Part shown: one piece after another, positions 5,251-9,278 of the stretch
Layout: each line of letters begins with the position of its first letter
How positions within the stretch are numbered: the first letter of the stretch is position 1
From: Flavobacteriales bacterium
Lineage (GTDB): Bacteria > Bacteroidota > Bacteroidia > Flavobacteriales > BACL11
Assembly: GCA_014381465.1 (NCBI GenBank)
Contig: JACNLP010000025.1
Location: forward strand, 1 to 38,415
Reading direction: 5' to 3'
DNA length: 38,415 bases
Translations under genes and position numbers: made by a program
The notes under the pieces: model-generated
Told to the model about the DNA's origin: nothing
The model's input: the letters and a program-made list of their open reading frames with translations, nothing else
Database searches by the model: none

Positions 5251-6063
5251 ATGAAACGGATAATTATTGCTTTACTAGGAATCTCCTTAGTTTTTACTTC
5301 TTGTAAGAAAGGGAAGGTAGAGATTTCTGGCTGTACAGATTCATCAGCATTAAACTTTGACCCACTAGCTACAATTGATGATAGTAGCTGTATATATCCT
5401 GTTAATACAAGCTTAACCATTAATTTTTCGCAAACTGTAGATGGAGTAGACTTGACTACTGATACTATGATTTACACCAATTCGGCAGGTGAGGACTATA
5501 GTATTCAAACATTAAAATATTTAATCTCAGATATTACCTTACATAAAGATGACAGTACTTCAATCTTATTAAAAGAAGTACATTTTGTAGACATTAGAAA
5601 TGCTTCTACTCTAAGTGTTGATTTTGGAGAATTGCAGGATGGAAATTACACTTCTATTTCCTTTACTATGGGTTTAGATACTGCAAAAAATATTAGCAAC
5701 CGATATGTAAATGAAGATTTTCATGCAACTATGTTTTGGCCTGAACCAAATGGTGGAGGGTATCATTATATGAAATTAGAAGGAGCTTACACTAATGATT
5801 CTACCTTCTATAATACCCATACTGGCGGGACTATGGGTGGTGATTACTCATTTAACAATAACTCTTCTATTTTATTAAATGTTAATAACGACATGGGTGA
5901 TGTAATTATTGATATTAATATGGAGATTAATAATTGGTATCAAACACCAAATGAAATTGCTTTCTCTACTTATGGTATGGGTATAATGATGAATATGCAA
6001 AAACAAATGGAATTGAAACAGAACGGAATGACAGATATTTTTTCTGTTTCTGTAAATCAGTAA
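5251..6063 (+). CDS. MbnP-like copper-binding lipoprotein
   Basis: This is a 270-residue lipoprotein. The lipobox FTSC puts the lipidated Cys at 18, so the mature protein sits on a membrane facing the periplasm or surface. Residues 28-47 form a Cys-bounded acidic motif (CTDSSALNFDPLATIDDSSC) often seen in Bacteroidota exported proteins. The rest resembles the MbnP family: the LKYLISDITL strand (88-97), FTMGLD (138-143), and the core ATMFWPEPNGGGYHYMKLEG (159-178), with Trp163 and Trp229. In the studied methanotroph pair, the diheme partner oxidises a Trp of MbnP to kynurenine, creating a copper site. The next gene encodes such a diheme protein four bases downstream, which strongly supports the assignment. 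No methanobactin genes are nearby, so the physiological role here is open. Confidence 0.75.
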   Translation: MKRIIIALLGISLVFTSCKKGKVEISGCTDSSALNFDPLATIDDSSCIYPVNTSLTINFSQTVDGVDLTTDTMIYTNSAGEDYSIQTLKYLISDITLHKDDSTSILLKEVHFVDIRNASTLSVDFGELQDGNYTSISFTMGLDTAKNISNRYVNEDFHATMFWPEPNGGGYHYMKLEGAYTNDSTFYNTHTGGTMGGDYSFNNNSSILLNVNNDMGDVIIDINMEINNWYQTPNEIAFSTYGMGIMMNMQKQMELKQNGMTDIFSVSVNQ

Positions 6064-6067
6064 TGCA

Positions 6068-7105
6068 ATGAAAAAAGCACTATATTTCTTTATAGTTTTA
6101 GTACTTCTTTTTTCCTGCAAAAAAGAAGTGGTTGAAACTACAATTCCTCACCAAACAAGCCCTTACACTATAAGCACCCCTCTTGGATTTCCTACAATGC
6201 AAATTCCAGATAATAATCCTATGACAGTGGAGGGAGTGACACTTGGCAAAAAACTTTTTCATGACAAGATATTGAGTGCAGACGGCACACAATCTTGCGC
6301 TTCTTGCCATTTTCAAGCGGCTGGTTTTTCTGATACAAACCGTTTTAGTGAAGGAATTGATGGCTCTTTTGGCGATAGGAATGCTTCCACTATTGTAAAT
6401 GCTGGCTGGAATACTTCCAATTTTTGGGATGGGAGAGCAACCACTTTGGAAGATCAAGCTTTTGGTCCTGTTGTCAATCCAATTGAAATGAATAATAGTT
6501 GGCAAAATGTAGAAAATACGCTCAATGCAAATACAACTTATAAGGATTTGTTCAAAAAGACATTTAATATAGATGATATTGATTCTACTCATGTAGTGAT
6601 GGCTATTGCACAATTTGAGAGAACTTTAATTTCAGCTAATTCAAAATATGATAAGTATTTGAGAAATGAAATACAACTTTCTCCTTCCGAGCTAAATGGT
6701 TTGGTAATTTTCAATACAGAAAAAGGGGATTGTTTTCATTGTCATAGCACAGATATGTTTATCGATAATTTGTTTCATAATAATGGTTTAGATGCTGAGC
6801 CATTTACGGATTTAGGTTTGGCAAAAGTAACTGGCATAGATTCTGATAATGGAAAGTTCAAAACCCCAACGCTTAGAAATATTGAGTTTTCAGCACCATA
6901 TATGCATGATGGTAGATTCTCTACTTTGGAGCAGGTTGTTGAGCATTATAATAGTGGAGGAAAATACTCCACAACTGTTGATCCTTTAATGAAAAAATTA
7001 GGAGTTGGCTTACAGCTTACTGAGCAAGAAAAACAGGATTTAATAGCTTTTTTGAAAACACTATCTGATACAGAATTTCTAAACAATCCAGATTTTACTC
7101 CTTAA
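6068..7105 (+). CDS. Diheme cytochrome c peroxidase family lipoprotein (MbnH-like)
   Basis: This 345-residue lipoprotein (lipobox FSC, Cys17) has two c-type heme sites: CASCH at 77-81 and CFHCH at 222-226. It belongs to the bacterial cytochrome c peroxidase/MauG/MbnH superfamily. Other family signatures are GKKLFHDKILS (60-70), NFWDGRA (118-124) and APYMHDGRF (276-284). Members either reduce hydrogen peroxide or, as MauG and MbnH do, use high-valent hemes to oxidise residues of a partner protein. The gene begins four bases after an MbnP-like gene, which favours a partner-modifying role over simple peroxide removal. Its 3' end overlaps the convergent FG-GAP gene by 11 bp. Diheme identity is certain; the substrate is inference. 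Confidence 0.88.
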   Translation: MKKALYFFIVLVLLFSCKKEVVETTIPHQTSPYTISTPLGFPTMQIPDNNPMTVEGVTLGKKLFHDKILSADGTQSCASCHFQAAGFSDTNRFSEGIDGSFGDRNASTIVNAGWNTSNFWDGRATTLEDQAFGPVVNPIEMNNSWQNVENTLNANTTYKDLFKKTFNIDDIDSTHVVMAIAQFERTLISANSKYDKYLRNEIQLSPSELNGLVIFNTEKGDCFHCHSTDMFIDNLFHNNGLDAEPFTDLGLAKVTGIDSDNGKFKTPTLRNIEFSAPYMHDGRFSTLEQVVEHYNSGGKYSTTVDPLMKKLGVGLQLTEQEKQDLIAFLKTLSDTEFLNNPDFTP

Positions 7106-9278
7106 CAAATTTTAAAGTAGAATTTTCTAATTTAATAATGTAAATTCCACTAGGAAGACTGCTCACATTTAGTTTGTGATTTTCGGTGGATTTTTCTTCT
7201 CTTATAATAAGTTCGCCTAAAATGTTAAAAAGGTTTATTTCACCATTAATTTCACTTTGAATAAATAGATTTTCATTAGCTGGATTTGGGTAAATTAAAA
7301 ACAGATTTGAAGAATAAATTTCATTCATATTAGTAGTAACTGTATCTCCAGAAAAATAACTTAACCCTCCACAATAATTTCCAATTATCATATCAGGAAT
7401 TTGGTCGTTATTTATATCCTTGATACATAAAGCTGTTTTGCTTCCTTCTTTAATATTCTGTTCGGTATTACTAATAAGGTTAAAATTTCCACTTAAGTTT
7501 CCATCTATATTATTGTAATGGTAAATTCCTCCGTAATTGGAGCCAATATACAAATGATATTCTCCATTAATATCAACCAAAAAAGGAGCACTATAACCAG
7601 TGCTTATGTACAAAGAATCCACATCAATTCCTCCAAAATTAGAGACAATACTATCAAATACAGCTGTATTTAAAGTTCCTTTATTTGGAAAATAAGTGAT
7701 TGTTCCCATCATGTTACCAATGAGTAAATCCAATAATCCATCTCGATTTACATCCACCAGTTGAGGTGTAGCAAAATAGCCCACATCAATATGCTCGTAA
7801 TTAGCCACAGAAAGTGAGAAATTGGATGGCGTTCCTCCATTATTTGTGAAATAATGCAGGTTTCCATCAGCATCTCCAATTATCATATCTTTATCGTTAT
7901 CTCCATCTAAATCTCCAAAAGTGGGATAAATGTTTTTGGCTGGAATATTTAGAATCATATTCAAATTTATTGTAGAAATCCCAGCAAAATCTCTCGTAAC
8001 TAAATCAAAAGTTGGTAAAGAAGGTGTTCCTGTATTCTTAAAAAGAGCAAGTCCAGAAACATCATTTCCATTTATATCATGGTAGCCGTAATTTCCAACA
8101 ATTATATCTTGTAAACTATCATTATTATAATCAAAAAAAACAGGATAAGCTCCTTCTCCTAAATCAATCATATCTTCTTGTAAAAACGATTTGCTAACAA
8201 AATTAAAATCAGGTAAATTATTAGTTCCATTATTAGCATAAAGCCATACACTTTCAAAATTTTCGGAGTTGGCTTGGCTATTAGTTGTAACTACCAAATC
8301 TTTTACACCATCATGGGTTACATCCAAATAAAAAGGAGTAGGAAATAAGTGTAAGTTGGTAGCAATAGTATTGGTATTATTTGCAGGAAAAATACTATCT
8401 ACTGCTATTATATTTGCATTTTGATTGTTGCCACCATTTATAAGTAAGTTTAAATTATTAAAACTCACATCTCCTAACACTAAATCTTTATCGCTATCAT
8501 TATCTACATCAATTGCCAAAAGGGTTGAGCCAGAATGTTTTTGTTTGCTATTTGCATTGTTTGGAACAAAAGCTGGGGTGCAACTATTTACATTGCAAGC
8601 TGTGCAATTGATAAAATAGCTATTTAGTCCTTCAAAAAAATTACCCCAACAAGATTCGTTAAACTCAAAAGCTAAAGTGTCGCAATTTCCGTAATTTTCC
8701 ATTGCCATATTTTTATGAAATTCTACAAAACCACCAGTAATTGCAAAAGTTAAAATATCCAAATCACCATCATTATCTATATCTGAAATTGCAGGCAAAT
8801 CTACACTGCTTACAAATAAATTAAAATTATTAGCTCCATAATCCGATAGTAAAAGTGAGGTAACTAAAGTAAAGGAAAGTGAAGATGTTGAAGTATTTTC
8901 GTAAACCTCAATCCCCCCTGAAGAGTACGCAAAAATATCTTGTTTCCCATCACAATTATAGTCCTCTAAAAGTACCCAATCGTGCAAATTTGGGAAAGCA
9001 GAGCGGTACTCTGGAGCAAAAATATACTCCCCATTTATGCTTAAAAAAGGAGTAATTTTATTTCCTGTTCTATCAAAAATAATAAGATCATTTACGCCAT
9101 CCAAATTTAAATCAATCTCTGATGGTTGTGCTGCATTTATACCTCCAACCCAACTATGTTTAAAATCAAATCCATTTTCTTGAACAGAAATAGAGGTATC
9201 TCTATTAAAATATATTTGAGCAGAAACGGCTGAAACAATCCAAAGAGTTGTAAATAAAATGCCAATTATTTTTTTCAT
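7095..9278 (-). CDS. Secreted FG-GAP/VCBS-repeat protein with T9SS sorting domain
   Basis: This is a 727-residue exported protein with a signal peptide (residues 1-20, ending SAQ). At least nine calcium-binding-type loops of the DxNxDGxxDL kind are spread along it, for example DLNLDGVNDL, DIDNDGDLDIL, DLDGDNDKDM, DVNRDGLLDLL and DINNDQIPDM. Such repeats build a beta-propeller like that of integrin alpha chains. The C-terminal ~75 residues (IYPNPANENLFIQ ... LPSGIYIIKLENSTLKFVKE) are a clear type A T9SS sorting domain, so the protein passes the outer membrane and is surface-attached or released. It is monocistronic, and its last 11 bases overlap the end of the convergent diheme gene. The role is probably adhesion or ligand binding; nothing in it is catalytic. 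Confidence 0.9.
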   Translation of the reverse strand: MKKIIGILFTTLWIVSAVSAQIYFNRDTSISVQENGFDFKHSWVGGINAAQPSEIDLNLDGVNDLIIFDRTGNKITPFLSINGEYIFAPEYRSAFPNLHDWVLLEDYNCDGKQDIFAYSSGGIEVYENTSTSSLSFTLVTSLLLSDYGANNFNLFVSSVDLPAISDIDNDGDLDILTFAITGGFVEFHKNMAMENYGNCDTLAFEFNESCWGNFFEGLNSYFINCTACNVNSCTPAFVPNNANSKQKHSGSTLLAIDVDNDSDKDLVLGDVSFNNLNLLINGGNNQNANIIAVDSIFPANNTNTIATNLHLFPTPFYLDVTHDGVKDLVVTTNSQANSENFESVWLYANNGTNNLPDFNFVSKSFLQEDMIDLGEGAYPVFFDYNNDSLQDIIVGNYGYHDINGNDVSGLALFKNTGTPSLPTFDLVTRDFAGISTINLNMILNIPAKNIYPTFGDLDGDNDKDMIIGDADGNLHYFTNNGGTPSNFSLSVANYEHIDVGYFATPQLVDVNRDGLLDLLIGNMMGTITYFPNKGTLNTAVFDSIVSNFGGIDVDSLYISTGYSAPFLVDINGEYHLYIGSNYGGIYHYNNIDGNLSGNFNLISNTEQNIKEGSKTALCIKDINNDQIPDMIIGNYCGGLSYFSGDTVTTNMNEIYSSNLFLIYPNPANENLFIQSEINGEINLFNILGELIIREEKSTENHKLNVSSLPSGIYIIKLENSTLKFVKE

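Follow-up and report, generated by a model that had tools for sequence, protein, structure and literature searches.

An MbnP/MbnH-type lipoprotein and dihaem pair with an altered tryptophan motif in a marine Flavobacteriales bacterium

What might a gene pair resembling MbnP and MbnH do in a marine bacterium that lacks the methanobactin context? The question arises in a Flavobacteriales bacterium, on a window of 38,415 nucleotides (the whole stretch of DNA analysed here) that is a single contig of a 1.98 Mb genome, 97% complete. An initial annotation, made from the sequence alone, had described an MbnP-like lipoprotein gene followed by a dihaem gene and proposed a copper-handling or protein-oxidation system with another purpose. 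Overall, its observation is confirmed and its interpretation is partly supported. The gene coordinates, the four-base gap (positions 6064-6067, both genes on the + strand), Trp163, Trp229, Cys28, Cys47 and the CxxCH motifs at residues 77-81 and 222-226 were all reproduced (Table 1). Its emphasis on the missing methanobactin context holds in that the MbnB family (PF05114) found no match across this 97% complete genome, while the same search was positive in two control genomes, but it is not new: conservation of the MbnP/MbnH pair in organisms well outside the methanobactin producers has been described (PMC3621798), and MbnPH-like genes occur in other copper-related, copper-responsive operons (PMC9426467). 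What sets the window protein apart, and was overlooked, is the loss of a second tryptophan together with the gain of His172 and Met174.

Table 1. Features of the lipoprotein-dihaem locus, in window positions
Feature	Position	Strand	Basis
MbnP-family lipoprotein, 270 aa	5251..6063	+	PF20243 match, fold match 7L6G
Cys28-Cys47 'GCTDxxAxNF..DDSSC' module, behind the lipid-attachment Cys	5329..5394	+	Genome-wide motif count
Trp163 codon, first Trp of WxW, predicted kynurenine site; second Trp replaced by Glu165	5737..5739	+	Alignment
His172 and Met174, candidate copper ligands	5764..5772	+	Invariant in subfamily, absent from WxW types
His190, candidate copper ligand	5818..5820	+	Conserved in nearly whole family
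Trp229	5935..5937	+	Subfamily-only conservation
MbnH-family di-haem lipoprotein, 345 aa	6068..7105	+	TIGR04039 best family, 6E1C nearest structure, tree
First haem motif CASCH, residues 77-81	6296..6310	+	
Second haem motif CFHCH, residues 222-226	6731..6745	+	
Tyr294, column of the MauG axial tyrosine	6947..6949	+	Met in bacterial peroxidases

Identity of the two proteins

Families, folds and trees all back the MbnP/MbnH-like identity given in the initial annotation. The lipoprotein matches the Pfam MbnP family PF20243 at 106.4 bits (cut-off 27; E 2e-30) and the dihaem matches CCP_MauG at E 2e-61, so that neither assignment is due to chance. An AlphaFold2 model of the lipoprotein (pLDDT 93) retrieved Methylosinus trichosporium MbnP (7L6G) at Z 16.6, with an rmsd of 3.0 over 205 residues, the next structure reaching Z 6.1; placement outside MbnP, which had been named as an outcome that would overturn the reading, is thus not what we found. 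Searches of the PDB with the single lipoprotein sequence and with a first profile returned no MbnP, and a broader profile recovered 7L6G. Against the MbnP equivalog TIGR04052 the lipoprotein scores 21.5 bits, under the curated cut-off of 140, but across 395 genomes of the class no match attains this cut-off, while 260 have one at E 0.001 or better, and the shortfall is therefore general to the class. TIGR04052 was formerly named for a four-Cys motif; the cysteines of the window protein are confined to positions 18, 28 and 47, with none inside the MbnP domain. The view that both proteins are lipoproteins is supported by their putative lipid-attachment residues, Cys18 being invariant among 67 MbnP relatives and Cys17 of the dihaem at least 90% conserved among 47.

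For the dihaem, the NCBIfam ranking places MbnH (TIGR04039) first at 285.9 bits, below its curated cut-off of 362.85, and MauG (TIGR03791) next at 208.9 bits, below 443.85. Sequence (E 4e-57) and predicted structure alike point to MbnH 6E1C as the nearest solved chain, the structural match reaching Z 36.7 where the best peroxidase reaches 31.8. A tree built from 100 dihaems separates the MbnP partners and 6E1C from four peroxidases with 99% SH-aLRT; a position of the dihaem gene among ordinary peroxidases, which the initial annotation had named as a refutation, is not what the tree shows. A tyrosine at the axial position, in place of Met or His, marks MauG-type enzymes (PMC7567364), and the Tyr294 column holds Tyr in 53 of 53 subfamily partners and Met in the three reference peroxidases in which this column is occupied. 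Like MauG, a di-haem enzyme with an axial tyrosine whose targets for oxidation are Trp residues in a partner protein, the window dihaem would act on its neighbour; it differs in scoring closer to MbnH. Trp120, Gln130 and Glu140 show no variation across 47 aligned partners, an alignment that omits a few more divergent partners that have lost Gln130 or Glu140. Four Cyclobacteriaceae dihaems (loci L073, L074, L076 and L077) have a haem-motif spacing of 127 residues rather than about 145, and the one from L073 has a gap over the catalytic Gln-Glu stretch, yet all four have a partner MbnP of the window type.

The acidic segment between Cys28 and Cys47 had been singled out as a feature added to this system, a view that we reject. 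Its starting motif occurs in 41 copies on 11 contigs of the genome (reversed control, 0), and among relatives the copy number ranges over 0-2 for MbnP and 0-3 for MbnH. The segment is a module put to repeated use after the lipid anchor, and in relatives it comes and goes in both partners. Pfam matched no family to the module within the window protein. Dense clusters of GCTDxxAxN[YF] on contigs C35 and C75 (16 and 9 copies) probably belong to large repeat proteins.

A subfamily with an altered motif around the target tryptophan

Trp163 and Trp229 are the sole tryptophans of the lipoprotein, and both had been called conserved. For Trp163 this holds throughout: it is invariant across 40 aligned MbnP proteins, WxW types included. 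Trp229 is present in at least 90% of the subfamily alignment, where Met224 and Met246 are likewise conserved, but not in WxW-type members. The window motif reads M161-F-W163-P-E165-P-N-G-G-G-Y171-H172-Y-M174, against M-x-W-x-W..G-Y/R-x-F in 7L6G and in WxW-type Bacteroidota proteins, so that of the two tryptophans of WxW one is kept and Glu165 stands in the second position. The conserved Met two residues upstream and the eight-residue spacing to Tyr171, both shared with WxW members such as MHWSWNPAAGYKF, place Trp163 opposite the first Trp of this motif in 7L6G. In published work on M. trichosporium, the first Trp of WxW is reportedly the residue converted to kynurenine. Members with W-N-W-P (Aequorivita and others) suggested that Trp163 might instead be the second Trp; we rejected this on the Met position and the Tyr171 spacing, the additional Trp of these members occupying the conserved Met position in the same alignment. 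In a neighbouring family, the MbnP relatives at L023 and L030 have W-x-M in place of W-x-W (TFWAMQ and TYWPML), which is another route to the loss of the second Trp.

The window protein belongs to a newly recognised, well-supported MbnP subfamily that has another residue in place of the second WxW Trp and, in the partner dihaem, a Met308 to match. All 78 sequences with [GA]-Y-H-[YF]-M lie together on the same side of a branch supported by 100% SH-aLRT, and this branch is recovered when the motif columns are omitted from the tree. Trp163, His172, Met174 and His190 are invariant in 67 sequences; the retrieval pattern limited position 172 to His or Ile and position 174 to Met, Val or Ile, so that invariance at these two positions is partly selected, while that of His190, Trp163, Met246 and others is independent of it. 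Met308 is found in 53 of 53 window-type partners and 16 of 18 W-N-W-P partners, compared with 1 of 20 WxW partners. The dihaem thus changes together with its proposed substrate, a pattern that shared descent alone could also produce. In the limited literature searched, we found no paper treating the G-Y-H subfamily.

With the M. trichosporium OB3b pair (7L6G, 6E1C) the window pair has in common both folds, gene adjacency, the target Trp, the dihaem architecture and the axial Tyr. It differs in having no methanobactin genes, no second WxW Trp and no Cys in the MbnP domain, in the added His172 and Met174, and in that both partners are predicted lipoproteins that score below the curated TIGR cut-offs. 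WxW-type Bacteroidota pairs resemble it in their Pfam MbnP match, the M-x-W start of the motif, His190 and the adjacent dihaem, but they keep M-x-W-x-W..GYxF and have dihaems without Met308, where the window type has M-x-W-P-x..GGGYHYM. A further parallel is offered by MopE/SACCP and CorA/CorB of methanotrophs, which hold a Trp-derived kynurenine in a copper(I) site; in MopE and CorA this site consists of two His and the kynurenine, beside a co-transcribed dihaem (PMC3423442, PMC3912023), and the window protein offers one Trp and two candidate His. MbnP has no marked similarity to MopE or CorA (PMC3621798), and both were absent from our sequence and fold search results, the fold-search absence being no evidence against a likeness.

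Genomic neighbourhood of the pair

This genome holds one MbnP-domain gene and two MbnH-family dihaem genes. Adjacency and order of the pair are preserved in 75 of 80 related loci, one of the remaining five stopping at a contig edge. Within the window's genus the pair is flanked by mdh and a convergent gene for a type IX-secreted FG-GAP protein (7095-9278, - strand, in the window), while in most of the window's own family it adjoins a divergently oriented gene encoding about 814 aa, which by eye we take to be priA, and precedes M43 peptidases. Nine distant loci (L084, L087, L092, L096, L098, L100, L102, L104 and L109), a Chlorobiota MAG among them, have FG-GAP homologues (about 500 bits or more) on the strand of the dihaem gene, either directly 3' of it or overlapping it, and a tenth locus has a looser arrangement. 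The second dihaem of the genome (G000:C63:38688-39722; L212:4689-5723) is MbnH-like at 235 bits; its catalytic Gln and Glu are replaced, it has no MbnP partner, and two M43-type peptidase genes flank it.

Within the window, the pair has no copper gene as a neighbour, and no methylamine dehydrogenase gene was recognised. In 16 loci from several Bacteroidota lineages, of both the WxW and the window type, the MbnP/MbnH genes adjoin a gene for a predicted outer-membrane barrel (for example L083:6906-7949, L063:6866-7792, L112:6146-7144, L157:299-1378 and L146:364-1344, among others). The mature N-terminus of this family is CDxC (CxxC type), with CCG and His-rich loops in L145-L147; Pfam matched no family to the two members checked individually (L083 and L063), and the family was not detected in this genome. 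It is possible that the barrel is a third component serving copper passage.

Proposed function and its alternatives

Taking the family, fold, pairing, target Trp, conserved catalytic and axial residues of the dihaem and altered motif as directly established, we propose, as the probable reading and with moderate confidence, a pair of the MbnP/MbnH kind in which the dihaem oxidises Trp163, most likely to kynurenine, and the lipoprotein binds copper(I). The two proteins would form a membrane-anchored maturation pair, probably facing the periplasm. With peroxide or oxygen the dihaem would reach a high-valent di-haem state and act on Trp163 of its neighbour; the matured lipoprotein may then bind one copper(I) through His190, His172 and perhaps Met174 beside the presumed kynurenine, and might serve copper handling by scavenging, storage or delivery. 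This reading is favoured by the MbnP domain and fold, MbnH as nearest family and structure, the separation from peroxidases in the tree, the invariant Trp163, the conserved dihaem residues and the pairing. It is favoured also by the invariance of His172, Met174 and His190, the parallel with MopE and CorA, the copper-responsive operons of MbnPH-like genes elsewhere and the barrel neighbour; the scores of both proteins below the TIGR cut-offs, the missing second Trp, the lack of an adjacent copper gene in the window and the failure to find the barrel in the genome all count against the proposal.

It could be that the dihaem does oxidise the lipoprotein, but that the product is another Trp modification or a crosslink, and that the metal or purpose differs. 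We regard this as unlikely, if worth serious attention: no subfamily member keeps the WxW-type surroundings of Trp163, the second Trp being lost and His172 and Met174 gained, Trp229, Met224 and Met246 are conserved in the subfamily, and the dihaem changes in step at Met308, yet the target Trp, His190 and the dihaem catalytic residues are all kept, and conserved chemistry is the simplest reading. That the dihaem is an ordinary cytochrome c peroxidase reducing hydrogen peroxide, with the lipoprotein as an unmodified accessory or electron partner, would agree with its matches to the general CCP_MauG family and to bacterial peroxidase structures. This seems to us improbable given the better scores of MbnH by sequence and structure, the separation of MbnP partners from peroxidases in the tree, Tyr294 in place of the peroxidase Met and the strict pairing with MbnP. 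We give even less credence to a role unrelated to copper, in which the pair would mature or serve type IX-secreted proteins encoded nearby (the FG-GAP protein or M43 peptidases). Such a role could be read from the same-strand FG-GAP homologues in nine distant loci, from the M43 peptidase gene that most loci of the window's own family have after the pair and from the second dihaem, which sits between two M43-type peptidases and is without MbnP; but most genomes of the family carry the FG-GAP gene far away from the pair (beside secDF where looked at), and many loci have neither neighbour.

Returning to kynurenine formation and copper binding, we suggest tentatively, at somewhat less than even confidence, that in a Bacteroidota/Chlorobiota branch of MbnP the copper site has been remodelled, with a predicted set of kynurenine-163, His190, His172 and Met174, and that the dihaem has co-evolved with it (Met308, His237). 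If so, these organisms, distant from methanotrophs, would possess a differently ligated kynurenine-copper protein; very few proteins are known to have a kynurenine in a metal site. A large and clearly bounded subfamily that keeps the target Trp but changes its surroundings would separate the MbnP residues needed for oxidation from those needed for copper. A close variant is present in cultured relatives (Aequorivita strains), which makes the proposal testable, and the subfamily would carry kynurenine chemistry into marine and sediment Bacteroidota.
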